A program made the position numbers and the translations under genes. The notes beneath the pieces were generated by a model. That model saw nothing but the letters and a program-made list of their open reading frames with translations. It was not told where the DNA came from and ran no database searches. Of a DNA stretch of 48,250 nt, positions 2,176-41,457 are shown one piece after another. The first letter of the stretch is position 1. Every line of letters starts with the position of its first letter. The stretch comes from Bacteroidales bacterium (GTDB lineage: Bacteria; Bacteroidota; Bacteroidia; Bacteroidales; UBA12077). The stretch is from NCBI GenBank assembly GCA_019038645.1, contig JAHOYT010000006.1, positions 1 through 48,250 on the forward strand, in the 5' to 3' direction.

Positions 2176-2709
2176 ATGGATAATATATTTGACGATATAC
2201 AAAAGCGATTTGAGATAACAGATATTGTTAAGCAAGACAAGAATCTAAATTTTCTGACTTGTAAGAAAGAACTAACAGTTTCTTTAATTACACATTTAAA
2301 GAATATAGAAGGTTTTTCGCATTTTGTATTATTAACAGCTGTTGATTGGATTGAAGATGAGAAATTTCAATTGACATATATATTAAATAACCCTGATAAA
2401 AGAATTGACATTGGTATAAGAACTTATATTGATAGAGGTACGGCTACAATGGACACTGCTCATCATTTATGGGAACATGTAGCAACTTATCAGAGAGAAT
2501 TAAAAGAAATGTTTGGAATCGATTTTCCAGGTAGCCCAAGAGTAGATGAACAGTTTATTCTTGAAGGATGGGATGATATTCCTCCATACCGAAGAGATTT
2601 TGATACATTGAAATATGCAGAAGAAACATTCTTCCCAAGAGAAGGAAGAAAGTCAAATGATCCTGCTGAATACATGAAGAAAAAGCTATATCCGGATGAA
2701 GAAAAATAA
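2176..2709 (+). CDS. NuoC-like (30 kDa) subunit
   Basis: This 177-aa soluble subunit belongs to the complex I 30-kDa family, which packs against the NuoD-like subunit and stabilises the quinone or catalytic pocket without a cofactor of its own. The signature region YQRELKEMFGIDFPGSPRVD (about 115-134) and the following PPYRRDFD match the family motif ERExxDMFGIxFxGHPxL...PLRKDF. The gene starts directly after the AT-rich right arm of the four-helix-bundle cassette. Its last 14 nt overlap the start of the NuoD-like gene, which suggests translational coupling. It contains no anomalies. The identification is firm; substrate specificity is not encoded here. Confidence 0.88.
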   Translation: MDNIFDDIQKRFEITDIVKQDKNLNFLTCKKELTVSLITHLKNIEGFSHFVLLTAVDWIEDEKFQLTYILNNPDKRIDIGIRTYIDRGTATMDTAHHLWEHVATYQRELKEMFGIDFPGSPRVDEQFILEGWDDIPPYRRDFDTLKYAEETFFPREGRKSNDPAEYMKKKLYPDEEK

Positions 2710-3892
2710 TAAACTTTTTAGTATGCAGGCTGATAGATCAAAATATCCCGAATTGGACAAAAACGGGAATCCTATTGTTGATTTATCATCACAAAAATAT
2801 ACGAAAATATGGCAAGGGCCTAATCACCCTGGAGTAACCGGTAATATGTCACTTGAGTTAACTCTAAGTGGTGATGAAATTGTTGAGGCAAAAACTCATG
2901 TTGGATATTTGCACCGTGGTTTCGAGAAGTTGATGGAGCGTAGATTATACATTCAATGTTTTCCTACTTGTATACGAATGTGTGTTCCTGAGGCAGATTC
3001 TAATGAATATGTATTGGCTGCAAGTATCGAGAATTTAACTGATATTGAAATTCCTGAAAAAGCATTGTGGCTAAGGACATTAGTATTGGAAATGGCTCGA
3101 TTACAAGTACTATTGAGGACTGTTCCTGGGCAAGCTTCTACACTATCTCTTGGGCTCGGAGGACAATGGGGTATGTATCTTCGTGATTTGATTCTTGATA
3201 GATTTGAAGAACTTACAGGTGGACGAATTTATCATATGTTTATTATTCCTGGTGGTGTAAGAGGACATTTACCTGACGGTTTTAAAGAACGTATGGAGGA
3301 AAACCTGAAAGGGATTGAAGAATTTGTTGGAAAAATTGAAAATCTTATTTTTAATAATTCGATATTTAAAAAACGTACTGTCGGTGTTGGTGTTATCGAT
3401 CCTTCATGGGTTAGTAAGTACGGAATTGTAGGTCCTAATGCTCGTGCTGCAGGCTTTAATCGTGATGTAAGAAAAGATTATCCTTATCTTAAATATAAAG
3501 AACTTGATTTTGAACCGCTTGTAGCTACCGATTCTGATATTTATACCAGAAATGTGATTCGAAAGCATGATTTAATTACAACCGTTGATTTAATAAGACA
3601 AATATTAGCAAAGATCCCTGAGAAAGGAGATATAAGAGCAACAACGCCTAATGTTTTACACTGGGAAATTCCGAAAGGAGAAACATATCAACGTTCTGAA
3701 TCATCTCGTGGAGAATATGGTATGTATATGGTTTCTGATGGTTCTAAGTATCCAAGAAGAATAAATTTGAGAGGACCAAGTTATACGCATGCGGTTTCTC
3801 TTTTAGAAAAAATGTTGATTAATGCAAATATTGCAGATGTGCATTCAATTATGGTTTCATTACAAACCTGTCCACCTGAAATTGAACGATAA
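2696..3892 (+). CDS. NuoD / [NiFe]-hydrogenase-large-subunit-like catalytic subunit with CxxE motifs
   Basis: This 398-aa subunit belongs to the 49-kDa/NiFe large-subunit fold: GPNHPGVTGN (41-50), HVGYLHRGFEKL (68-79) and PGGVRGHLPDG (185-195). At the place of the hydrogenase N-terminal CxxC it has Cys96-Val-Pro-Glu99. At the C-terminal DPCxxC position it has Cys392-Pro-Pro-Glu395, three residues before the end. Two additional cysteines, Cys88 and Cys92, precede the first motif. It is therefore neither a normal hydrogenase, which needs four cysteines, nor a classical NuoD, which has none. The alignment is mine, by eye. The start at 2696 overlaps the preceding gene; Met10 (2723) is an alternative. 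Other divergent group 4 complexes, such as the Mbx/Mbs or Ehr types, are the likeliest relatives. Confidence 0.85.
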   Translation: MKKNNKLFSMQADRSKYPELDKNGNPIVDLSSQKYTKIWQGPNHPGVTGNMSLELTLSGDEIVEAKTHVGYLHRGFEKLMERRLYIQCFPTCIRMCVPEADSNEYVLAASIENLTDIEIPEKALWLRTLVLEMARLQVLLRTVPGQASTLSLGLGGQWGMYLRDLILDRFEELTGGRIYHMFIIPGGVRGHLPDGFKERMEENLKGIEEFVGKIENLIFNNSIFKKRTVGVGVIDPSWVSKYGIVGPNARAAGFNRDVRKDYPYLKYKELDFEPLVATDSDIYTRNVIRKHDLITTVDLIRQILAKIPEKGDIRATTPNVLHWEIPKGETYQRSESSRGEYGMYMVSDGSKYPRRINLRGPSYTHAVSLLEKMLINANIADVHSIMVSLQTCPPEIER

Positions 3893-3894
3893 AT

Positions 3895-4136
3895 ATTGAT
3901 GATTTGTGTATTTGGTCATTTGATGATTGTAGAAAAGTAAGAAATTATGAGACTTTATTCGTTTGAGAAACTTGATGTATGGAAGGTGTCACGTAAACTG
4001 GCTAAAGAAATTTTAAATAAAGAAAGATTATTAATTGAAGAAATTGGTAATAAGCTAAATAAATTGAAAGAAGCTCAATTGACCAGAAATAAAAACTCTT
4101 CGAATAATCAAATAAACAAATAATCGAATAAACAAT
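3895..4136 (+). mobile_element. second IVP-type cassette, internally deleted, with inverted-repeat arms
   Basis: The arms 3895-3929 and 4102-4136 are imperfect inverted repeats matching at about 26 of 35 positions. They resemble the arms of the cassette at 1670-2168 in being built from blocks like tttatttg and cgaataaacaaata. The cassette lies between the NuoD-like gene, which ends at 3892, and the ferredoxin-flavoprotein gene, which starts at 4141, so it fills almost the whole gap. Its reading frame is the shortened four-helix-bundle gene at 3947-4123. Confidence 0.42.
3947..4123 (+). pseudogene. internally deleted four-helix-bundle (IVP) gene, 58 codons
   Basis: The frame is open from ATG at 3947 to TAA at 4121-4123. 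Residues 1-20 match residues 1-20 of the 124-aa protein at 1741-2115, with the first 13 identical. From Glu21 on, the sequence matches that protein's residues 94 to the end (…LIEEIGNKLNKLKEAQL). Residues 21-93, 219 nt in all, are missing and the frame is kept. Many codon differences between the copies are synonymous, for example tca/tcg, gtg/gta and ggg/ggt, so both copies were probably under selection after they diverged. The two central helices are gone, so a normal bundle is unlikely. It may be a dead remnant, or a short helical peptide may still be made. Confidence 0.7.
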
Positions 4137-4140
4137 AGAT

Positions 4141-5940
4141 ATGAGTTTGAAAAATATATTAACACCATTCATAGCCTGGGGCAATATTACTAAAGATCCC
4201 GTTACTGTTAAAGATCCACTAAATGAAAGGCCAGGAGCTGAAAGATATCGTGGATTTCATAAAAACGATATTGAAACATGTATTGGTTGCGGAACTTGTG
4301 AAGATATTTGCGAAAATCAAGCTATCGATTTGGTTCCTGTGGATGGAATTGAGACAAAAGATGGTGATAGTGGATTAAGGCCCATGGTTGATTATGGAAG
4401 ATGTTGCTGGTGTGCTTTATGTGTTGATATTTGTACTACCGGTTCATTAACTTTATCGAATGAATATACATGGGTTAGTGAAGATGCCGATGATTTTAGA
4501 TTTATTCCGGGTGTTGATAAAAAATCATGGGATGACAATGAGAAAGGATGGAAGAAGCCTGAAGGTAATTATGAGTTCTACGGAACAAAAAGAGTTCATA
4601 TGCCGGAACTTCATGCTGAAGACAGAGATAAATCATTTATTGAGTTTGTAACAGGATACTCAAAACAGCAAGCAGAAGAAGAAGCCGACAGATGTGTTGA
4701 ATGTGGAATTTGTGTTGCTACATGCCCTGCTCATATGGGAATTCCTGAATATATTAGTGCAATTAGAAATAATGATTTAGAAGAAGGTTTACGAATCTTA
4801 TATGATACAAATCCATTGCCTGAAATATGTGGACGAATTTGTACTCATAAATGCGAAGAAGTTTGTTCGGTTGGTCATAACGGCGATCCTTTATCAATTC
4901 GTTGGTTGAAACGATATATAGCTGATCAAAATCCATCAGAGAAATATAAGGAAATTTTAAATTCCGAGAATGTTGAAAATAATGGCAAAAAAGTAGCAAT
5001 AATAGGTTCAGGTCCTTCTGGATTATCTGCTGCTTATTATCTTTCATTAATAGGATATGAATGTACTATTTACGAAAAATTGCCAGAAGCTGGTGGAATG
5101 ATGCGTTATGGAATTCCTGAGTATAGATTGCCTTACGATCAAATCGATAAAGATATTGATTACATTTTGAGCCTTGGTGTTAAAATAGAATACAATGTAA
5201 ATATTGGAACTGATATTACTTTAGATAAGTTAAAAACAGACTATGATGCAGTATTTGCAGGTACAGGATTACATCTTGGAAGAAGTACAAGAATCCCGGG
5301 TTCAGATCATAAAGATGTATTTTTTGCAACTGACTTATTAAGAGAAATCTCATTAGGTAAAGAAATACAAGTATCAGAAAAAATTATTGTTATTGGTGGT
5401 GGTAATGTTGCAATGGATATTACACGTTCGCTTGCCCGCTTGCAAAATAATAAATTTGGTAAAGTTGATACGACAGCTACTTCATTAGAATCGGAAGATA
5501 TAATGCCTGCAGATAGAGAAGAAGTTGTTGAGGCAAGAGAAGAAAAAGCAATAATTGATCCGGGTTGGGGCCCAACATCTATCGAAATTGAGAACGATAA
5601 AGTTAAAGGATTACATGTTCAGAAATGTTTGTCTGTATTTGACGAAAGCGGACGATTTAGTCCAAAATTTGATGAGAAAAACACGAAATTCTTTGAAGCT
5701 GATATGATTGTAGAATCAATTGGTCAGGGAATGGATATTGAATATATTAGCAAGGAAACTCGTGATCAGATTAAGTTTGATCAGCGTGGCAGAATCCAGG
5801 TTAATGAATATTTCCAGACAGGAGCAAAATGGTTGTTTATTGGAGGAGATATTATTCAGGGACCGGATGTAATTCATGGTATTGCTAATGGACATAAGGC
5901 TGCAATCGGAATTGATAAGTTTATTAATCAAAACGGGTAA
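4141..5940 (+). CDS. NuoI-like ferredoxin fused to a GltD/NfnB-type FAD/NAD(P) oxidoreductase
   Basis: The protein (599 aa) has three parts. Residues 1-110 are NuoI-like with two [4Fe-4S] motifs, Cys47/50/53/57 and Cys88/91/94/98. Residues 180-262 form the iron-sulfur domain found at the N-terminus of the glutamate synthase small subunit, with Cys185/188/191/195 and Cys230/234/238/242. Residues 284-599 hold two dinucleotide folds: GSGPSG (289-294) for FAD and GGGNVA (419-424) for NAD(P). Electrons could thus run from NAD(P)H through FAD and four clusters to the NuoB-like subunit, or backwards, within one chain. That would replace the NuoEFG module of classical complex I. The last gene of the operon, it starts 18 nt after the truncated IVP frame. 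Domain calls are firm; direction and cofactor preference are inferred. Confidence 0.88.
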   Translation: MSLKNILTPFIAWGNITKDPVTVKDPLNERPGAERYRGFHKNDIETCIGCGTCEDICENQAIDLVPVDGIETKDGDSGLRPMVDYGRCCWCALCVDICTTGSLTLSNEYTWVSEDADDFRFIPGVDKKSWDDNEKGWKKPEGNYEFYGTKRVHMPELHAEDRDKSFIEFVTGYSKQQAEEEADRCVECGICVATCPAHMGIPEYISAIRNNDLEEGLRILYDTNPLPEICGRICTHKCEEVCSVGHNGDPLSIRWLKRYIADQNPSEKYKEILNSENVENNGKKVAIIGSGPSGLSAAYYLSLIGYECTIYEKLPEAGGMMRYGIPEYRLPYDQIDKDIDYILSLGVKIEYNVNIGTDITLDKLKTDYDAVFAGTGLHLGRSTRIPGSDHKDVFFATDLLREISLGKEIQVSEKIIVIGGGNVAMDITRSLARLQNNKFGKVDTTATSLESEDIMPADREEVVEAREEKAIIDPGWGPTSIEIENDKVKGLHVQKCLSVFDESGRFSPKFDEKNTKFFEADMIVESIGQGMDIEYISKETRDQIKFDQRGRIQVNEYFQTGAKWLFIGGDIIQGPDVIHGIANGHKAAIGIDKFINQNG

Positions 5941-5964
5941 TATTTAATTATCTGCATATATTGA

Positions 5965-5996
5965 TTTGTTGTGAATAAATTATTATTTTTACTTTG
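5965..5996 (+). promoter_or_regulatory. putative Bacteroidota-type promoter of the CBS-domain gene
   Basis: TTTG at 5965-5968 lies 20 bp before TTACTTTG at 5989-5996, close to the Bacteroidota consensus TTTG-N19-21-TAnnTTTG with one mismatch. Transcription would start near 6003, about 17 nt before the ATG at 6020. This separates the CBS gene from the upstream oxidoreductase operon. Confidence 0.5.
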
Positions 5997-6019
5997 TAAA
6001 CATTAAAATTAAAACGGCT

Positions 6020-6502
6020 ATGTTAGTAAAGGAAATTTTAAATAAAAAGAAGGATCAGGGTAATCATAAAGTTTATACGGTAAAGCAAAGTACATCGGCA
6101 TATGATGCAATTGCACGATTAGATGAGTTAAAAGTTGGTTCGTTATTAGTAATAAATGATAATGATGAAATTGTGGGAATCCTTTCAGAGAGAGATATTC
6201 TTTATAAATGTTATAACTCAGGGATTGCGTTAACAGAACAAAAAATTGAAAATTTAATGACCCCAAAAGATCAATTGATTATTGGGAAAATGGATGATGA
6301 CACAAAATATTTAAGAAATGTAATGACCGAGAAGAGAATACGTCATATTCCAATTATTGATGAATCGAATAATTTGGTTGGAATTATTTCATCGGGAGAT
6401 ATTATTAAAAATGAGTTGGAATTAACTGAGAATGAGGCTGAACTAATGCGTGAGCATATTAAAAACCCATTTGGAATTCATTTGTACAACAAAGAAGATT
6501 AA
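6020..6502 (+). CDS. tandem CBS-domain protein
   Basis: This 160-aa cytosolic protein consists of two CBS motifs and little else. CBS pairs (Bateman modules) bind adenine nucleotides such as AMP, ATP or SAM and report energy state to a partner. The first repeat runs about residues 7-75, with GSLLVINDNDEIVGILSERD, and the second about 84-146, with RHIPIIDESNNLVGIISSGD. No enzymatic or transport domain is attached, so it probably acts on another protein. It has its own promoter and a strong terminator after it, so it appears to be a single-gene unit. The partner cannot be told from the sequence. Confidence 0.85.
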   Translation: MLVKEILNKKKDQGNHKVYTVKQSTSAYDAIARLDELKVGSLLVINDNDEIVGILSERDILYKCYNSGIALTEQKIENLMTPKDQLIIGKMDDDTKYLRNVMTEKRIRHIPIIDESNNLVGIISSGDIIKNELELTENEAELMREHIKNPFGIHLYNKED

Positions 6503-8209: not shown

Positions 8210-9376
8210 ATGAAAAAGGCAAACTATTTATTGGCAGGGATTTTTGCTCTTTTAGCATTGTTTGGGTGCAAAGAAGAGAGTATTAGTCCAAATTATGTGT
8301 ATTCTATACCGGAACAAACAAGTGATGGATGGGAAACCGATATTCCTGAAAACCTGGCAATGGATGTTACTCCATTAATTGAAATGATGAATTATATTAA
8401 TTCTACCAATGATCACAATATCCATAATATTTTAATTTTAAAAGATGGGAAATTAGTATTTGAGGAATATTTCGATGGTTATTTGTATTCAAATGATCCT
8501 CCAGGATCAAATGGTGATTATATCACATACAACAGGGAAGTTGATCATTATCTTGCATCTGTTACGAAAAGTGTCACTTCAGTTTTAGTCGGGATTGCAG
8601 AATATGAAGGATTTATTAATAGTGTTGATGATAAACTAATAGATTATTTCCCTGAGTATTCCGATATATTGGTTGGAGAAAAGGCTGATTTAACCATACA
8701 CGATTTAATCACTATGACTTCGGGTCTTGCCTTTGATGAGTCTACATATCCTTATGGTGATTCAAGAAATGATATAACCCAATTATTTGTTAGTGATGAT
8801 CCAACAGCATATGTTTTGTCAAGAGATCTTACTTCTGGTCCGGGAACAAGTTTTTTTTATAATAGTGGAACAACAAATGTTTTAGGTAGAATTGTTGAAA
8901 AGGCTTCAGGAATGAGCTTGATTGATTTTGGAAATCAATATTTATTTGATCCATTAAATTGTCAGGGAGGTTTGTGGGAATCTTTTTCAAGTGGATTACT
9001 TTTTGCTTCCGGTGGATTATATCTTCGTCCTCGCGAATTAATGAAAATAGGGTATTTGTTTTTAAATAATGGGATGTGGGGAACACAACAGTTCCTTTCT
9101 GAAGATTGGATTAATGAATCTAAGTATCCATATATTTCAACAGCTACAAGTTTTTACCCTGGTTATTATGGCTATCAATGGTGGATTCGCGACTTTCATG
9201 CTGAAGGAAATACTTACAGCTGTTTTTATGCTGCCGGTTGGGGCGAACAGTATATGTTCATTTTTCCCGAACAGGATTTGATTATAGAATTCAATTGTGG
9301 AAACTATTACAATTCAGCACGAATTTCACCATTCGATTTAGTTGAAGATTATATTTTAGAAGCTATTAAAAAGTAA
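8210..9376 (+). CDS. serine hydrolase lipoprotein, beta-lactamase/PBP-like family
   Basis: The protein (388 aa) has a lipoprotein signal ending in LFGC with Cys20 as the lipidated residue, so it should be anchored in the envelope. It has the class C beta-lactamase fold: nucleophile motif Ser117-Val-Thr-Lys120 and Tyr217-Asn-Ser219, the YxS/N equivalent. Near the C-terminus, AAGWGEQY stands where KTG or HxG would be. This variant is common in esterase and peptidase relatives rather than true beta-lactamases, so substrates may be peptides, amides or esters. REP-like palindromes lie on both sides and no partner gene is adjacent. The hydrolase family is firm; the substrate is unknown. Confidence 0.82.
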   Translation: MKKANYLLAGIFALLALFGCKEESISPNYVYSIPEQTSDGWETDIPENLAMDVTPLIEMMNYINSTNDHNIHNILILKDGKLVFEEYFDGYLYSNDPPGSNGDYITYNREVDHYLASVTKSVTSVLVGIAEYEGFINSVDDKLIDYFPEYSDILVGEKADLTIHDLITMTSGLAFDESTYPYGDSRNDITQLFVSDDPTAYVLSRDLTSGPGTSFFYNSGTTNVLGRIVEKASGMSLIDFGNQYLFDPLNCQGGLWESFSSGLLFASGGLYLRPRELMKIGYLFLNNGMWGTQQFLSEDWINESKYPYISTATSFYPGYYGYQWWIRDFHAEGNTYSCFYAAGWGEQYMFIFPEQDLIIEFNCGNYYNSARISPFDLVEDYILEAIKK

Positions 9377-9413
9377 AATAGAACAGTTCCTAAAGTAGTA
9401 TTATAAATTACCG

Positions 9414-9476
9414 GTCATGTTGAGCATAGCGAAAAATCTCTTATATTTAAAGATTCTTCGCTTTGCTCATAATGAC
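9414..9476. repeat. REP-like palindrome
   Basis: GTCAT (9414-9418) pairs with ATGAC (9472-9476). The inner arm tgagcatagcgaa (9421-9433) pairs with ttcgctttgctca (9457-9469) with one mismatch. It shares the GTCAT...ATGAC ends with the palindrome at 7904-7985. It sits between convergent genes, where it could also help end transcription. Confidence 0.65.
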
Positions 9477-14105: not shown

Positions 14106-15365
14106 ATGTTATTTCAGTCATTAAATATTATAGAACCTATTTTAAAAGCAATAGATGAAGAAGGCTATACAATTCCAACTCCAATACAGGAGCAATCTAT
14201 CCCGATCATTTTACATGGGACTGATTTATTGGGTTGTGCACAAACTGGAACAGGGAAAACTGCTGCATTTGCAATTCCTATTTTGCAATTATTAGATGCA
14301 AATAGAAATTACGGTAAAAAAAGAAAAATAAGGAGTCTGATTGTTACACCAACACGGGAGCTAGCTATCCAGATTGGGGAAAGTTTTAAAGCTTACGGGA
14401 GACATACAAAAATAAACTGTACAGTTATTTTTGGCGGTGTTAAACAAAATAAACAAACATCATCATTGCAAGGTGGAGTCGATGTTTTAGTTGCAACTCC
14501 AGGTCGGTTATTAGATCTCATGAATCAAGGATTTATTAGTTTACGTGATGTTGAAATATTTGTATTGGATGAGGCTGATCGAATGCTGGACATGGGTTTT
14601 ATTCATGATGTAAAAAAGTTGTTAGCTGTATTACCAAAAAGAAGACAATCGCTTTTCTTTTCAGCCACAATGCCTCCTGAAATTGTTAAGCTGGCAAGTA
14701 CAATATTGTATAAACCAAAAGAGATATCGGTTACGCCTGTTTCTTCGACGGTTGATTTAATAAAGCAATACGTTTATTTTACCGATAAAGGGAAAAAGAA
14801 CGCTTTATTGGTGGAAGTTTTAAAAGACAAAAATATTAAAACTGCGTTAGTATTTACACGCACAAAATACGGAGCCGATAAGGTAGTCAGAGTTATATCG
14901 AAGCAAAATATTAAAGCAGAAGCAATCCATGGTGATAAATCACAAAATGCGAGGCAACGCGCATTAGCAAATTTTAAGGCACAAACCATTCGTGTACTTG
15001 TAGCAACAGATATTGCTGCACGCGGAATAGATGTAGATGATCTGGGGTGTGTTATTAATTATGAAGTACCAAATATCCCCGAAACATATGTACATCGTAT
15101 TGGAAGAACAGGAAGGGCTGGTGCAGAAGGAATCGCATTATCGTTTTGCGATGCTACTGAGAAACCATATTTAAAAGATATTGAAAAATTGATTTCTAAA
15201 TCGATCACAGTAATTGATGATCATCCTTTTCCTTTAACGGACCACAATCCCGAACCAAAACCAAAACAACAACACGGAAGAGGAACGCAGGGTCATGCAA
15301 GACCGAAACCTGCCCGAAATAAAAAACAGAAAAAGTGGTATGGAAAACCTAAAACTTTCCGTTAA
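14106..15365 (+). CDS. rhlE: DEAD-box RNA helicase, RhlE type
   Basis: I chose ATG 14106 (MLFQSLN...), which gives 419 aa and puts the conserved Phe and Q motif (YTIPTPIQEQSIP) at the usual distance from the N-terminus; the open frame extends 57 nt further. All motifs are present: AQTGTGKT, PTRELA, TPGRLLD, DEAD, SAT, ARGIDV and HRIGRTGRAG. A basic C-terminal tail of about 50 residues (KPKPKQQ…KPARNKKQKKWYGKP) probably binds RNA. RhlE-type enzymes remodel rRNA during ribosome assembly and act in cold adaptation. A second helicase follows 69 nt later on the same strand. Confidence 0.88.
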   Translation: MLFQSLNIIEPILKAIDEEGYTIPTPIQEQSIPIILHGTDLLGCAQTGTGKTAAFAIPILQLLDANRNYGKKRKIRSLIVTPTRELAIQIGESFKAYGRHTKINCTVIFGGVKQNKQTSSLQGGVDVLVATPGRLLDLMNQGFISLRDVEIFVLDEADRMLDMGFIHDVKKLLAVLPKRRQSLFFSATMPPEIVKLASTILYKPKEISVTPVSSTVDLIKQYVYFTDKGKKNALLVEVLKDKNIKTALVFTRTKYGADKVVRVISKQNIKAEAIHGDKSQNARQRALANFKAQTIRVLVATDIAARGIDVDDLGCVINYEVPNIPETYVHRIGRTGRAGAEGIALSFCDATEKPYLKDIEKLISKSITVIDDHPFPLTDHNPEPKPKQQHGRGTQGHARPKPARNKKQKKWYGKPKTFR

Positions 15366-35689: not shown

Positions 35690-36979
35690 TTATTTATTGT
35701 TTGCAGTTATTTCCAATTTTACAATATCTTCCTGTCCGAATCCATTTTGATCAAATTTAGAGATATAAGCATTGGTACCATCTCCAACAGGGATGAAAAA
35801 TAAATTATCGTCAGTTGAATTTACCGGATAACCTAAATTCTCCGGTTTTGACCATTTATTTTCGCTATCTTTTTGAGCAAAAAATATGTCAAATCCGCCC
35901 ATGTTGGTATGTCCTTGCGAGCTGAAATAAAGCTTGTTGCCATTTTCTAATATAATTGGAGTTTCTTCGTCGAATTCAGTATTAATTGTATTTCCCATGT
36001 TAACAGCTTCTCCCCAGTCCTGAGTTTTTTCACTAAACTCCGATTTGTAAATGTCAGTTCCTCCAAATCCTCCTTTATGGTCGCTCACAAAATAAATTGT
36101 TTTACCATCACTAGAAAGAGATGCAAATGTTTCCTGAAATTTGGAATTGATATTTTTATTTAACTTCCCGGGTAATGACCATCTGTTATTTAATAAATAG
36201 CTAATGTATATATCTCTGTTGTACAAATCATCTTTATAAAGCAAAAGCGTGTTACCATCAGCTGACAAAAAACACGAATAATAATTGCCATCAGAACCCA
36301 GATCAGGAGTAATATTTACCGGAGCAGTCCAGTACTCATCTTTCCTTTTTGTATAGAATATAGCATCATAAAACTTTAATCTTGATATATAAACCATTGA
36401 GTTCTCACTAGAAGAGACTACTGGTCTTATGTTAGAAAATCCATCATTAACAGGTTTTCCTATATTATTTTCTTTTACATTAGCGGGGGTTTTTATTTGC
36501 TCTTTTGCTATTTCACATGACTGAATTTGCTTTTCAACATAGTCTATATTATAAATATTATTAGCAGCTAATGTTTCTTCAAATTTTTTAAATGTTTCGA
36601 TAGCTTTATCAAGTTGATTATCTACCTGATAAGCACAAGCCAGATAAAATATTGTTCTGATTGGAGCATTAGTTTCCTTAAAAGAACCCTCTTTAAAAAC
36701 TTTAGAAGTATTCTCACATGCTTTTTCTAAGTATGGAATTGATTTGCTTTTCTGACCAGGTATTTGTAAATAACATTCGCCAATACGATGATTAATATAT
36801 GCATTATCCCAACCATTATTATAAATATTAAGGTATAATGCAAGTGCTTCAGTATAATCTTCATACAGAATATAATATTCTGCTTCAAAAAACGCTTCTT
36901 TTATAGCATTTTTAAATTGTGAAGATGCCGTGAAATACCCACTAACAGTAATTAACAATATTAAAAGTATTTTTTTCAT
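35690..36979 (-). CDS. exported TPR-PD40 repeat protein (first of three paralogues)
   Basis: The protein (429 aa) has a signal peptide (MKKILLILLITVSGYFTASS, then Gln). TPR-like helices (about 25-160) contain the shared phrase IPGQKSKSIPYLEKA. A WD40-like PD40 propeller follows (about 180-425). PD40 blades end in FGGTDIYKSE and LYFSSQGHTNMGGFDIF. Members with an added OmpA domain (PorE-like) bind peptidoglycan in the type IX system; this one has none. All three paralogues lie in a row on the same strand with gaps of 76 and 112 nt. Its job is unknown; protein-protein contacts in the periplasm are the natural guess. Confidence 0.82.
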   Translation of the reverse strand: MKKILLILLITVSGYFTASSQFKNAIKEAFFEAEYYILYEDYTEALALYLNIYNNGWDNAYINHRIGECYLQIPGQKSKSIPYLEKACENTSKVFKEGSFKETNAPIRTIFYLACAYQVDNQLDKAIETFKKFEETLAANNIYNIDYVEKQIQSCEIAKEQIKTPANVKENNIGKPVNDGFSNIRPVVSSSENSMVYISRLKFYDAIFYTKRKDEYWTAPVNITPDLGSDGNYYSCFLSADGNTLLLYKDDLYNRDIYISYLLNNRWSLPGKLNKNINSKFQETFASLSSDGKTIYFVSDHKGGFGGTDIYKSEFSEKTQDWGEAVNMGNTINTEFDEETPIILENGNKLYFSSQGHTNMGGFDIFFAQKDSENKWSKPENLGYPVNSTDDNLFFIPVGDGTNAYISKFDQNGFGQEDIVKLEITANNK

Positions 36980-37055
36980 AACACTGTTTAAGTAAGTTAA
37001 TATGAGAGGAACAAGTTACTTACATTAAACAAAAAATACCAATTTTAACAGTTAA

Positions 37056-40010
37056 TTATCTGTTACTTTTTTTGTTTGCTTTATCCCTTCTGCGATTGAA
37101 GTAAATAATAATTAAGCCAAGAAGGATTCCAGCAATACTAATGTAAAGGATCATCCATTTATTCGTCTCAACATCAGTGTCAGGTTGAACTTTTGTTCTA
37201 TCTGTTGCAGATATTTTATCTTCTGTGGCAGCCTTTGATGATATGAGCATTCCTTCTAGTAAAGCAAATATCAGATCGAGTTCAGCTTTTGAATAAATAT
37301 TTTTGTTTTCGAGATATGTTTTAAAATCTTCGATACTAACGATATCAATTGCTGAAGCATCCATGTTTTTCAACAGATCAGATATATCGGATTTGAGGAT
37401 ATTTTCAAGATTTGCAATCAAAACATTTACAGGAATATCAGAAGTGTATAAATGTTTTTCCAATAGACTTATAATGTCAAAATAACCATAATTATAAGTT
37501 TCTGATTTCTGATCAAGGTGTTTAATTACTGAAATATTATTTTTAAAATCAGCCTGATTTGAATTGACCGACTTTAAAACAGTATTTAAATCTTCTTCCG
37601 AAATATGATACAATTTACTAATAAATTCATTAGAGTTCTCAGTTGAGCTAATTGCCAAAGCTATAATCAAAGTCTGTGCTTGTTCGAGGGATAATCCCAT
37701 TGAATCAACCTTTACGTAAATTTGTGAAATAAGATCCGGCGCTGAATTGGATGATGTAATTTCAGATAATCCGAGAAGCGTCCTGAATTCCTGACCGTTA
37801 AATGAGCTAATATCTGTTAAAACTTCAGCAAAATCTTTATTTACAGGAGTATGAGAAATAACAATTTCTTCGTTTTTAACATTATTATGTTTATCAACAA
37901 GCTTAAAATTTAGCTTGCTTTTTTCGCCTTTTGGTTCCAGCTCGTAAACAAAGCTTTCCTTTTTAATATCAAAACGTTCTGAATTAATCAATTGATTATC
38001 AACAAAAGTTTCTACAAACAATTTTGAACCCTTTTCAACCGAAAGTTTAATTTTTACACTTTTGTTACCATTTTCAGATAATGAAATAATTTGTTCATCA
38101 ATATTTAATTCTGCAATTAAATCTTTTGGTATATAGGAAACGCTTACTTCTTCTGTTCTTACATTGTTATTTTTATCAACCAGCTTAAATTTAATAATAC
38201 TTTTTCCTTCGAGAGGTTTATACTCATAAATAAAATCATCTTTGTTAATATCAAATTCTTCAGAATTAATTAAATTGTCTTTATAAAAAGTATTTACAAA
38301 TAACTTATTCCCTTTTTGCAGAGATAATTTAATTTTTATATTTCGGTCATCACTGTTTGTTGAGTAAAAATAATTTTCAGGAGTAATTTCCGGTATAGTA
38401 TCAGCAAGCTGTACATCATCATCTGAAACATCCTGTACAAGAGGAGAAAGAAAAATTTCTCTAATATCATAGGCTTTTGATATATAAAACTGATCACCGG
38501 TTTTATCATTCTGCAAACTTTCATAAATCAAATGATTTAATCCCAGTGGAGTCTGATACTGATATTCTACGATGCCGCTGTCGGGCTTTAATACCGCAAT
38601 TGTATCCTGATTAGCCTTATTAATAATGTTAATACTAAAGTCTTTTTTGTTTCTGTCTTCCTCATTGTCCATAGTTTTTACTCCTTCAACAATAAGGTTG
38701 TTGTATCCAGGGAGATCAAGCAATTGAAACCGATATATATCCTGTCCACCAAAACCTTTGTTTGAAAACTGTGAACAGTAAGCAAAACTGCCGTTTTCAT
38801 TCGGAGCAAAGAAGATATCATCATCTGTTGAATTAATCGGATACCCAATATTTACTGGTGTACTCCATGAATCAATATTTTTTTCGGAATAAAAAATATC
38901 GTACCCACCCATTCCTTTATGTCCTTCGGAGCTAAAAAATAATCGTTTTCCATCCGGTGTTAAAAACGGAGTATTTTCATTCCATCTTGTATTAATAATA
39001 TCACCAAGATTTTCGGGTACACCCCAGGTTGAATCGGTTAATCTATTTGAGACATAAATGTCCAGGTCGCCATAACCATCATCTGTACGGTTACTTACAA
39101 AATATAGTTTCTGATTATCAGGCGATAAAGAAGCGTGTGACTCCCAGTATTTAGTATTGATATTCTCACCTAATTTCTTAGCACCTGACCAAATACCCTC
39201 TTTAAGGTAACTTACATAAATGTTTCCGTCAAAATTATCATCACGATAAATATACAATTCGGTTCCATTGAAAGATAAACCGGTTGTAGCACTTTTATCA
39301 TCTATTCCAAGCTGACCCATTATATTTATTGGATAGTTCCATTGTCCTGCGCTATCCTTTTTTGAGTAAAAAATTGCATCGTAAAACTGGAGTGATGCCG
39401 TAAATACTAATGTTGACCCATCACCTGAAACTATAGCATTAAATTCATTAAATCTTGTATTTACAGGAGTTCCAAGATTGCTGGCAATAAAACTAACCGG
39501 TTCATATTGCAAATGCAAGGCATTCCTACAGGCATCAAATTGTCTCGTAATATAATCGGTGTCATAAATGTCTTTATTTGCTAGTTTTTTAGTTCTGGTA
39601 ATCGCATTCTGAAAACCTGAATATGCATCAATAGCTTCATCGATCCGGTTGTTTACAAGATATGCATTACCTAAATAAAACAAAGCATCAACAGGAGCAA
39701 ATTTTTCTGAATAGGTGTTATTCCGATAATTAAAAGTAGTTTTTTGAATTGCACTTTCAAGATATGAAATCGATTTTGACTTTTGACCTGGTATATGAAG
39801 ATATGAAAAACCAATTTTATACATTACATTGTAATTCAATGAGTCTTCTTCGAGAACCCTTAGGAACAAAGGAATTGCTTCCTCATAATCTTCGTAAGAA
39901 AACCACGAGTCGCCATCCAGAAATATTTCTTCAAGCTCATAATATTCCTGAGCAAAAGAATTGGAAATAAAAAATAAGCACGTTATTAAAAGTATAAAAA
40001 ACCTTTTCAT
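37056..40010 (-). CDS. exported TPR-PD40 protein with a long C-terminal extension and membrane anchor
   Basis: The first 430 residues of this 984-aa protein match its two neighbours: signal peptide ending NSFAQ, TPR-like helices with IPGQKSKSISYLE, and a PD40 propeller with SNRTDDGYGDLDIY and KGMGGYDIFYSE. Next come about 100 residues of beta-rich sequence, then two tandem copies of a 70-residue module (about 565-705). These modules share KLFV.TF..N.LINSE.FDI and KLVDK.NNV. A helical, leucine-rich region (about 720-935) ends in one membrane helix (about 952-971) and a strongly basic tail. The protein would thus be held in the inner membrane with its propeller in the periplasm. No catalytic residues are seen. 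I do not know a named homologue. Confidence 0.82.
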   Translation of the reverse strand: MKRFFILLITCLFFISNSFAQEYYELEEIFLDGDSWFSYEDYEEAIPLFLRVLEEDSLNYNVMYKIGFSYLHIPGQKSKSISYLESAIQKTTFNYRNNTYSEKFAPVDALFYLGNAYLVNNRIDEAIDAYSGFQNAITRTKKLANKDIYDTDYITRQFDACRNALHLQYEPVSFIASNLGTPVNTRFNEFNAIVSGDGSTLVFTASLQFYDAIFYSKKDSAGQWNYPINIMGQLGIDDKSATTGLSFNGTELYIYRDDNFDGNIYVSYLKEGIWSGAKKLGENINTKYWESHASLSPDNQKLYFVSNRTDDGYGDLDIYVSNRLTDSTWGVPENLGDIINTRWNENTPFLTPDGKRLFFSSEGHKGMGGYDIFYSEKNIDSWSTPVNIGYPINSTDDDIFFAPNENGSFAYCSQFSNKGFGGQDIYRFQLLDLPGYNNLIVEGVKTMDNEEDRNKKDFSINIINKANQDTIAVLKPDSGIVEYQYQTPLGLNHLIYESLQNDKTGDQFYISKAYDIREIFLSPLVQDVSDDDVQLADTIPEITPENYFYSTNSDDRNIKIKLSLQKGNKLFVNTFYKDNLINSEEFDINKDDFIYEYKPLEGKSIIKFKLVDKNNNVRTEEVSVSYIPKDLIAELNIDEQIISLSENGNKSVKIKLSVEKGSKLFVETFVDNQLINSERFDIKKESFVYELEPKGEKSKLNFKLVDKHNNVKNEEIVISHTPVNKDFAEVLTDISSFNGQEFRTLLGLSEITSSNSAPDLISQIYVKVDSMGLSLEQAQTLIIALAISSTENSNEFISKLYHISEEDLNTVLKSVNSNQADFKNNISVIKHLDQKSETYNYGYFDIISLLEKHLYTSDIPVNVLIANLENILKSDISDLLKNMDASAIDIVSIEDFKTYLENKNIYSKAELDLIFALLEGMLISSKAATEDKISATDRTKVQPDTDVETNKWMILYISIAGILLGLIIIYFNRRRDKANKKSNR

Positions 40011-40122
40011 ATCTATACACGAAATTAGATAAAAATAATGAGAATTTCACGCGGAGGCTTATAATCTTGTTAAAAAATATAAATGGATGAATTATTTATA
40101 TCAAAGAAAAAAATGATTTTTT

Positions 40123-41457
40123 TTAATCAATCGAAGTGTTCGAATTGATATTTAATTCTTTTTCTTTTTCAGGAATGTTTTCTCTGCCAAAAATCTGAAT
40201 ACGATAAATATCGTTATCTCCGTAACCAGTCTTTTTAAATTTTGAGAAATATGCAATTTCACCATTTTTTAACGGAAAAAAGAATGTATCATCATCGGTT
40301 GTATTAAACGGGAAACCTAAGTTTTCAGGTTTTGTCCATTCGTTTCCACTTTTTTTAGATACGAAAATATCGAAGCCTCCAATATTAAAATGTCCCTGAG
40401 ATGAAAAATACAGTGTTTGTCCATCTTCTGTAATAAAAGGAGTAGCTTCGTCGAAACTGGTGTTAATTGAGGCTCCCATATTCAACGGAGCTTGCCAGTT
40501 GCCATCTACATCAATTTCAGATTTATAAATATCAAATCCTCCGAATCCTCCCTTGCGGTCACTGGTAAAATATAGCGTTTTCCCATTATTGCTAACACAG
40601 GCATGAGTTTCTGATGCTGATGTGTTTATAGAATTATTAAGTTTTTTTACTTCACCCCACAAACCATTATTAAACCGACTGGTATAAAGGTTGAAATCAT
40701 CATTATCGTTACTAACTAAGTAAAGGGTGTTTCCGTCTTTGGTGAGATAAACCGGAAATAACGGATTTTCGGAATTAAAATCAAGAGAAATATTTCGTGC
40801 GGGTAACCAGCGTCCATCTCGTTTTTTCGATGAAAAAATCCCGTCGTAAAATCTTAATTCACTTATAAATACTATTGTTTCTTCATCTTCCGAAACCAAT
40901 GGGTTAATATTATTAAACTTGCTGTTTACGTTTTTACCCAGATTAGATTCTATTATGCTTGTTGGAATTTTATTTAGTTCCTGAGCATTTTTACACGCAA
41001 TGATTTCAGCGTCAACAATCTTATTCTTTTCAGCATCTTCAGGTCCTACTATTTCTTTATATTTGTTAAATGCATTAATGGCATCCTGTAATTGGTTGTT
41101 TACTCTGTATGCCATACCAAGATACAAATATGTTTCAACAGGTGCATTTCTTTCAGTATAAAGTCCTACATTATAATCTTCAGAAATATTCTCTGTTGCA
41201 TCTTCAAGGTAAGTTATAGCACTTTTTTTTTGATTAGGAATGTTAAGATAACAGAAGCCAATTCGATGTTTTATGTTTGCGTCTCTTCTGCCGGCATTAT
41301 AAAGTTCAATAAATAAGGGGAGAGCCTCCCGATATTCTTTATATATAAGTGCGAATTCTCCATTTATATATAATCGTTTTAATTCTTTTTTAGTCTGAGA
41401 ACTGACAAAAGCGGATAATGAAAAAATAACAATAATGGTTATTAGTATTTTTTTCAT
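40123..41457 (-). CDS. exported TPR-PD40 repeat protein (third paralogue)
   Basis: The protein (444 aa) has a signal peptide (MKKILITIIVIFSLSAFVSS). TPR-like helices carry IPNQKKSAITYLEDA, the same position as IPGQKSKS in the other two. A PD40 propeller follows with SDRKGGFGGFDIYKSE, LYFSSQGHFNIGGFDIF and the last blade GYGDNDIYRIQIFG. It ends after the propeller with a short acidic tail and has no OmpA or anchor domain. On the minus strand it is the first of the three paralogues, so it may lead the transcript, with 112 nt to the next gene. Function unknown. Confidence 0.82.
   Translation of the reverse strand: MKKILITIIVIFSLSAFVSSQTKKELKRLYINGEFALIYKEYREALPLFIELYNAGRRDANIKHRIGFCYLNIPNQKKSAITYLEDATENISEDYNVGLYTERNAPVETYLYLGMAYRVNNQLQDAINAFNKYKEIVGPEDAEKNKIVDAEIIACKNAQELNKIPTSIIESNLGKNVNSKFNNINPLVSEDEETIVFISELRFYDGIFSSKKRDGRWLPARNISLDFNSENPLFPVYLTKDGNTLYLVSNDNDDFNLYTSRFNNGLWGEVKKLNNSINTSASETHACVSNNGKTLYFTSDRKGGFGGFDIYKSEIDVDGNWQAPLNMGASINTSFDEATPFITEDGQTLYFSSQGHFNIGGFDIFVSKKSGNEWTKPENLGFPFNTTDDDTFFFPLKNGEIAYFSKFKKTGYGDNDIYRIQIFGRENIPEKEKELNINSNTSID

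Follow-up and report, generated by a model that had tools for sequence, protein, structure and literature searches.

The window analysed here is a whole contig (G000:C25) of 48,250 bases from a Bacteroidales bacterium, so the operon that lies at its start is truncated at the 5′ end. What remains of this operon encodes NuoH-, NuoB-, NuoC- and NuoD-like proteins, plus a protein in which a NuoI-like domain is fused to a flavoprotein domain (Table 1). The subject of this analysis is the NuoD-like gene, an open frame whose ATG lies 14 bases inside the 3′ end of the NuoC-like gene, and which a first-pass annotation, made from the sequence alone, had read as a hydrogenase-like catalytic subunit with both of its CxxC metal motifs changed to CxxE. 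This gene almost certainly encodes the large subunit of a bacterial MBS/Mbx-type complex, the MBS of Pyrococcus furiosus being, we take it, the complex formerly called Mbx. The complex as a whole would belong to the superfamily of complex I and the group 4 [NiFe] hydrogenases, with the Ni-Fe site lost.

Table 1. Genes and residues of the MBS/Mbx-type operon in the window, with the comparison on which each name or placement is based
Feature	Position	Strand	Basis
NuoH/MbsM-like membrane anchor subunit, 302 amino acids	51..959	+	Pfam NADHdh, E 3.2e-45
NuoB/MbsJ-like proximal-cluster subunit, 226 amino acids	981..1661	+	phmmer against 6u8y_J, E 3.7e-63
NuoC/MbsK-like subunit, 177 amino acids	2176..2709	+	Pfam Complex1_30kDa, E 6.4e-22
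MbsL/MbxL-like large subunit, 398 amino acids	2696..3892	+	phmmer against 6u8y_L, E 3.6e-86; Foldseek
Cys96-Val-Pro-Glu99, at MbsL C85 to E88	2981..2992	+	
Cys392-Pro-Pro-Glu395, at MbsL C385 to D388	3869..3880	+	
NuoI/MbsN-like ferredoxin domain and GltD/NfnB-type flavoprotein domain, one fused gene, 599 amino acids	4141..5940	+	
Lys257, at the place of TmNfnB Glu117	4909..4911	+	Alignment to 4ylf_B, counted by hand
Ser448-Leu449-Glu450, at the NADP-binding YRR place	5482..5490	+	Alignment to 9n5u_A
CBS-domain protein, 3′ of the operon, membership in the system uncertain	6020..6502	+	Pfam CBS, E 2.8e-20

Comparison with solved structures points to this family. The large subunit was matched by phmmer to MbsL (6u8y_L) with an E-value of 3.6e-86, to Nqo4 of Thermus complex I with 1.3e-55 and to the MbhL hydrogenase with 7.9e-32. 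A structure model, built from 39 sequences and with a mean pLDDT of 83.6, matched 6u8y_L in Foldseek with a TMt of 0.93, a root-mean-square deviation of 2.0 Å and 38% identity; among the 50 Foldseek matches listed, this chain was top by TMt and identity but third by E-value. Residues 392-398 have a pLDDT below 50, so the model is silent on C392 and E395. The phmmer alignment is gap-free around both motifs and pairs CVPE and CPPE of the window with CVPE and CPPD of MbsL (C85 and C385 match the numbering of PMC7684303, and the numbers of E88 and D388 were counted from the alignment). In an alignment with the large subunit of a group 4 [NiFe] hydrogenase that the same genome encodes (L002), the two cysteines of ERICGIC stand opposite C96 and E99 and the first cysteine of DPCYCC opposite C392, which places E395 at the second.

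These alignments uphold much of the first-pass annotation: Cys88, Cys92, Cys96, Glu99, Cys392 and Glu395 lie where it had put them in the 398-residue frame, the CxxE motifs do occupy the hydrogenase CxxC places, and the Mbx/Mbs complexes that it named as a group to compare settle the matter, MbsL showing the same pattern. It also held rightly that the protein is not a hydrogenase; membership in the group 4 [NiFe] hydrogenases was rejected because the second cysteine of both CxxC pairs is Glu, whereas the group 4 hydrogenase of the same genome keeps both large-subunit CxxC pairs and the small-subunit CxxC. What the window shares with such Mbh-like hydrogenases is homologous large and small subunits and, as at locus L140 of the same genome, an Mrp-linked operon. 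The supposed symmetry of the two changes did not survive, since the glutamates are not matching changes of this lineage: the E99 place is already Glu in archaeal MbsL, and the E395 place is Asp in MbsL and in 14 rows of complex I NuoD, a protein that resembles the window's in its fold and in this acidic residue.

The P. furiosus MBS is reported to have lost two of the four Ni-ligand cysteines while retaining MbsL C85 and C385, and both a C85A/C385A variant and an MbsJ C25A variant are described as having dimethyltrisulfide activity comparable to wild type (PMC7684303). Catalysis was assigned to a site-differentiated proximal [4Fe-4S] cluster with three cysteine ligands, of which the fourth iron is the proposed catalytic site, and the authors placed MBS between the hydrogenases and complex I (PMC7684303). 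Given the same residues in MbsL and the behaviour of these mutants, CVPE/CPPE is the signature of a known family and needs no new chemistry. The residues themselves are little new; less ordinary are the NAD-type fused input module and a natural loss of the Cys pair.

Relatives were collected by a scan of genome contigs that returned 513 stretches encoding them, and analysis of the best 80 of these 513 makes for a sample biased to close relatives. The best 80, the window gene and 13 other rows, minus one unreadable locus (L054) and ten duplicates, gave 83 distinct rows, 82 from subfamily A, to which the window belongs, and one (L016) from subfamily B. Five residues, V97, E99, P393, P394 and E395, are invariant (83/83 each), so the pattern is not due to chance, and the earlier view that it does not reflect random decay stands on these columns. 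The C96 place holds Cys in 72 of the 83 rows (Ala in 7, Thr in 2, Ser in 2), and the C392 place holds Cys in 70 and Tyr in 13. Both Cys88 (Cys in 50/83) and Cys92 (39/83) vary freely. Free variation in homologs had been proposed as a check on the importance of these positions, and its outcome is divided, with all four cysteines varying and both glutamates fixed.

The two motif cysteines do not vary independently. Every row with C392 keeps C96 (70/70), C96 is absent only where residue 392 is Tyr, and two of the 13 Tyr392 rows (L115, L117) retain it. The Tyr392 rows form one clade (support 95/84, in a tree from a single search with some long branches flagged), and the pattern inside it calls for two or more losses of C96, or for a single loss followed by regain. 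The simplest reading is that use of the Cys pair ended once C392 was lost. Nine extra subfamily A rows were kept out of the 83-row counts because of species overlap with them (the fused subunits of L174 and L096, for instance, are identical); seven have both cysteines, two have Ala/Tyr, and all nine have E99 and E395. Loss of the Cys pair with both glutamates kept is a natural parallel of the active C85A/C385A mutant, and these relatives amount to a natural test of the published mutagenesis, in which the Cys pair is dispensable and the Glu pair is never lost in 83 rows.

Within the order, 58 of the 393 genomes, representing 40 of the 207 genera, gave a match at an E-value of 1e-70 or better, but in a phylum-wide set only 2 of 395 genomes, the window's counted in, did so, and the complex is thus patchily distributed. 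One holder is a named strain, Prolixibacter bellariivorans ATCC BAA-1284 (L095), whose large subunit is of the Ala/Tyr type, without the two cysteines. The 67 match rows divide by identity to the window into subfamily A (37 rows, 63-100%) and subfamily B (30 rows, 44-50%), and nine of the 58 genomes carry one of each. Residues of subfamily B were counted in 29 rows (27 rows, L016, itself one of the 30, and L132, found in the phylum-wide set, with the rows of G695 and G672 left out), where C96 and E99 are present in 29/29 and C392 and E395 in 28/28 readable rows. The retention of all four residues in subfamily B indicates that the family has had the four-residue set since early on, and that one subfamily A clade lost the Cys pair secondarily.

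The closest solved chain to the NuoB-like subunit is MbsJ (6u8y_J), and a phmmer alignment to it places Cys77, Cys142 and Cys172 of the window at MbsJ C28, C93 and C123, and Gly74 at MbsJ C25. Of the 77 rows that can be read (six of the 83 are short or missing), 75 have all three cluster cysteines; the exceptions are L116, whose aligned frame is part of the NuoH gene, and L087. A second set has them in 35/35 readable rows (three of its 38 short or missing). At the proximal cluster, complex I chains have adjacent cysteines whereas the window reads Cys-Gly. A gapless alignment to 2fug_4 maps the quinone residues H38 and Y87 of Nqo4 to Thr48 and Val97, which are found in 83/83 rows and in 29/29 subfamily B rows. 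Membership in complex I, whose NuoD has lost the hydrogenase cysteines and has the quinone His and Tyr that the window lacks, was rejected on these two features. The first-pass proposal of a reaction partner that is neither protons nor quinone is probably correct.

The fused subunit has nine cysteines in its NuoI part and eight in a Fer4_20 part, followed by flavin adenine dinucleotide (FAD) and nucleotide folds; each of these 17 cysteines is kept in all but one of 77 rows, a gap or X standing at the place in that one, and phmmer matched the protein to NfnA, NfnL and MbsN chains. In TmNfnB, Y310-R311-R312 are reported to bind the NADP phosphate and Glu117 to be a cluster ligand (PMC7596348). 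When the window is aligned to 4ylf_B and counted by hand, all seven Cys ligands listed for TmNfnB fall on cysteines, and the Glu117 place holds Lys, as it does in 76/76 readable rows and 33/33 of the second set. Electron bifurcation of the Nfn type in the fused domain was rejected on this replacement of a Glu ligand by Lys. In the alignment to 9n5u_A, VYRRSKSEMPA is paired with ATSLESEDIMPA, and an NADP(H)-specific GltD/NfnB module, as recognized by the YRR motif, was likewise rejected because the window reads SLE. The acidic residue in place of the second Arg of YRR suggests NAD(H) use.

Among the 76 rows that can be read at the YRR place, 70 have xLE and six YRR (one more row is gapped and six loci are short or missing); for subfamily A alone the counts are 70 and five of 75, the sixth YRR row being L016 of subfamily B. 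Within the second set, subfamily B has YRR in 24/24 readable rows, and the nine extra subfamily A rows have SLE in seven and YRR in two. (Selenocysteine in L016, suggested by one TGA, was discarded because this stop sits upstream of the start.) A midpoint-rooted tree of 51 fused subunits chosen to span these types puts all 24 xLE rows in one clade (100/100) and all 20 subfamily B rows in another (100/100). The seven subfamily A rows with YRR fall outside the xLE clade, six of them together (93/88, unstarred) and L062 loosely with subfamily B (93/90, unstarred). Taking subfamily B as outgroup, one change from YRR to xLE would be enough. Transfer of the fused subunit from subfamily B to the subfamily A rows with YRR was rejected, since this tree does not show it; the grouping of L062 with subfamily B leaves room for a single exchange between the two.

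L112 and L055 share 90% identity with the window in the fused product but only 63-81% in the NuoH-B-C-D part; for L039 and the partial L038, which match the rest of the operon better, identity in the fused product is 79%. The large-subunit and fused-subunit trees conflict in the same way. By these comparisons (region 4141-6502), recombination appears to have replaced the electron-input gene, a border of the exchange lying somewhere from about 3.9 to 4.8 kb.

Three subfamily A operons (L032, L034 and L036) illustrate what may precede the window. They are divergent from nqr-like genes and a Crp/Fnr-type gene, and start with mrpE, F, G, B, B′ and C, named by eye, followed by an MrpD-D fusion of about 1040 residues, all 5′ of H-B-C-D-I; the regulator and the fusion of L032 were checked against families, and the other membrane-arm names were given by eye. 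At the subfamily B locus L132, two separate MrpD-like genes and Mrp-like genes lie 5′ of an H-B-C-D-I order. The end of contig C85 is colinear with L036 position 8762 and the window start (contig C25) with position 14487, so that a gap of roughly 5.7 kb, into which the missing arm would fit, would lie between the two contigs. By analogy with these operons, we infer that an Mrp-type membrane arm exists here. Elsewhere in the genome, the Mrp-linked group 4 [NiFe] hydrogenase operon (L140, G000:C1:120000-138000) is adjoined by genes that, named by eye, resemble soluble-hydrogenase electron-transfer partners. The presence of this hydrogenase and an MBS-type complex in one genome recalls the pairing of MBH and MBS in P. 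furiosus.

Set beside MBS (6U8Y), the system shares CVPE and CPP(D/E), the sequence pattern of a three-Cys proximal cluster, the absence of quinone residues and a NuoH-B-C-D-I core, together with the two antiporter-like units and Mrp-like genes seen in the window's relatives. It differs from MBS in being bacterial, in having a NuoI-GltD fusion at the MbsN place and Gly at MbsJ C25, in the fusion of the antiporter units in the three subfamily A operons looked at, and in including one clade without both MbsL cysteines. Bacterial Mbx complexes are in print for Thermotoga and Caldanaerobacter (PMC4596419; PMC9431562); the Caldanaerobacter MbxL is described as lacking both CxxC motifs (PMC4596419), and mbxA of Thermotoga maritima as rising 4.36-fold after sulfur addition (PMC9431562). 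In Desulfurococcaceae, a GltD-type gene, SudA, was noted in 2010 to be encoded with the Mbx complex (PMC3035292), so there is precedent for a flavoprotein partner as such. The window resembles these systems in its Mbx-type core and in its GltD-type partner. Among the matches listed from the open-access literature, no title or abstract opening pointed to a publication on a Bacteroidota MBS or Mbx, which is a weak negative.

The proposed mechanism begins with electrons from NAD(H), possibly together with ferredoxin, that would enter the fused subunit through FAD and its [4Fe-4S] chain and reach the NuoB-like subunit at its proximal [4Fe-4S] cluster. The one iron of this cluster without a cysteine ligand would then reduce polysulfide, or another small S-S compound, in a hydrophobic chamber, and this reduction would drive H+/Na+ movement via the Mrp-like arm. 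Cys96 and Cys392 would be a left-over, dispensable pair, and Glu99 and Glu395 might serve, at a guess, as structural or electrostatic residues of the chamber and not as metal ligands. Reduction of polysulfide at an open cluster with pumping by an Mrp arm is carried over from P. furiosus, and the mechanism as a complete statement is somewhat more probable than not.

Several observations weigh against it. Neither an activity nor a substrate was found for any Bacteroidota member; the operon's mrp genes are absent from this assembly, where only the hydrogenase-operon paralogues were found; and the CoA-disulfide-reductase (NSR-like) family has no member over the cut-off in this genome, a result of little power since none of 14 control genomes has one either. 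The fused subunit scores 888.9 bits with NCBIfam NF010590, under its cut-off of 946, and the Lys at the TmNfnB Glu117 place leaves Nfn-type bifurcation unsupported. The NuoB-like protein of L087 (about 8793-9473) has Tyr at the third cluster Cys (GYMPRP) beside a large subunit with the normal Cys/Cys, which may be a real change or an assembly error. The weakest step is the electron donor. The P. furiosus MBS draws its electrons from reduced ferredoxin, and since the driving force from NADH alone to polysulfide is small, ferredoxin may contribute at the NuoI domain, or the acceptor or direction may differ.

A rival function is that of a ferredoxin:NAD(P)+ oxidoreductase or its reverse, in which the flavoprotein is the real second substrate site and the NuoB-side chamber only couples to pumping. 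The fusion of an NAD(P)-fold flavoprotein to the NuoI-like subunit across the family speaks for this possibility, as do descriptions of Mbx as a ferredoxin:NADP oxidoreductase (PMC3035292; PMC4596419), but the enzyme of P. furiosus has since been presented as a sulfane sulfur reductase (PMC7684303), and retention of a three-Cys proximal cluster would be odd at a site that reacts with nothing; we consider this function unlikely. A complex I-like enzyme that transfers electrons from NAD(P)H to menaquinone, its quinone pocket differing from that of complex I, would have in its favour that menaquinone would be the energetically easiest acceptor for NADH, and that Foldseek recovers the fold of the complex I 49-kDa subunit. 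The Thr and Val at the quinone places in all rows counted from both subfamilies and the Cys-Gly in place of CC make such an enzyme rather improbable.

The first-pass annotation had raised another possibility, a different metal centre held by two thiolates and two carboxylates, which would be the active site. Its appeal lies in the behaviour of the four residues as a set in most rows: both glutamates are invariant, C96 accompanies C392 without exception and is lost only in the Tyr392 clade, and subfamily B keeps all four in every readable row. One or both cysteines are missing in 13 of the 83 rows, however, and the same pattern occurs in MbsL, whose double mutant stays active and for which the parts of the report drawn on here mention no metal (PMC7684303). 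In view of the variable cysteines and of the activity of the archaeal double mutant, the metal centre was not kept as the preferred explanation and is very unlikely. A decayed hydrogenase or pseudogene would account for the loss of two of the four Ni ligands, but the open frame, the conserved gene order, the columns invariant over 83 rows and the occurrence in 40 genera of the order make its probability negligible.

Returning to the MBS-type complex with an open, polysulfide-reducing cluster, its relatives are a candidate NADH-linked version of MBS. A fuller and more tentative proposal, which we think more apt to fail in some part than to hold entire, is that the MBS family has split within one Bacteroidota order into an NADP(H)-type (YRR; subfamily B and a few of subfamily A) and a derived NAD(H)-type (xLE; most of subfamily A). 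The latter would take NADH through the NuoI-GltD fusion instead of NuoEFG and pass electrons to an open [4Fe-4S] cluster that reduces polysulfide, and one subfamily A clade would also have shed both left-over cysteines. If the activity is as proposed, sulfur respiration by a complex I relative extends past hyperthermophilic archaea and thermophilic bacteria into the Bacteroidota, and the Cys-less clade is a natural copy of the laboratory double mutant.

Around the operon core, 89 of the 101 locus records, some of them truncated, have a NuoH-like match, and there is a match to the CBS gene in 27 of 101, many records stopping short of that slot. In the window the CBS gene comes next after the fused gene, with no dihydroorotate-dehydrogenase-like gene there; such genes do follow the fused gene at L032 (15521-16501 and 17235-18212), L034 (16256-17248) and L036 (19744 to the end), the first of these named by NF005741/PRK07565 and the others by eye.

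Two small genes lie in gaps of the window's operon. An IVP gene (a 23S rRNA-intervening-sequence-type four-helix bundle) occupies 1741-2115, between the NuoB- and NuoC-like genes, and a second copy of 58 amino acids, internally deleted, occupies 3947-4123, between the NuoD-like and fused genes; AT-rich flanking repeats are common to both. Relatives L094 and L098 have a copy 5′ of the NuoC-like gene, and L076 (only 78 amino acids), L080 and L101 have one between the NuoD-like and fused genes. With matches in 8 of 101 locus records, two of them probably duplicates of L094 and L098, IVP looks like a small gene that repeatedly inserts into gaps of the MBS-type operon. Far from the operon, at 35693-41457 on the reverse strand, the list of open reading frames holds three adjoining genes of 429, 984 and 444 amino acids whose N-terminal repeat regions look alike.

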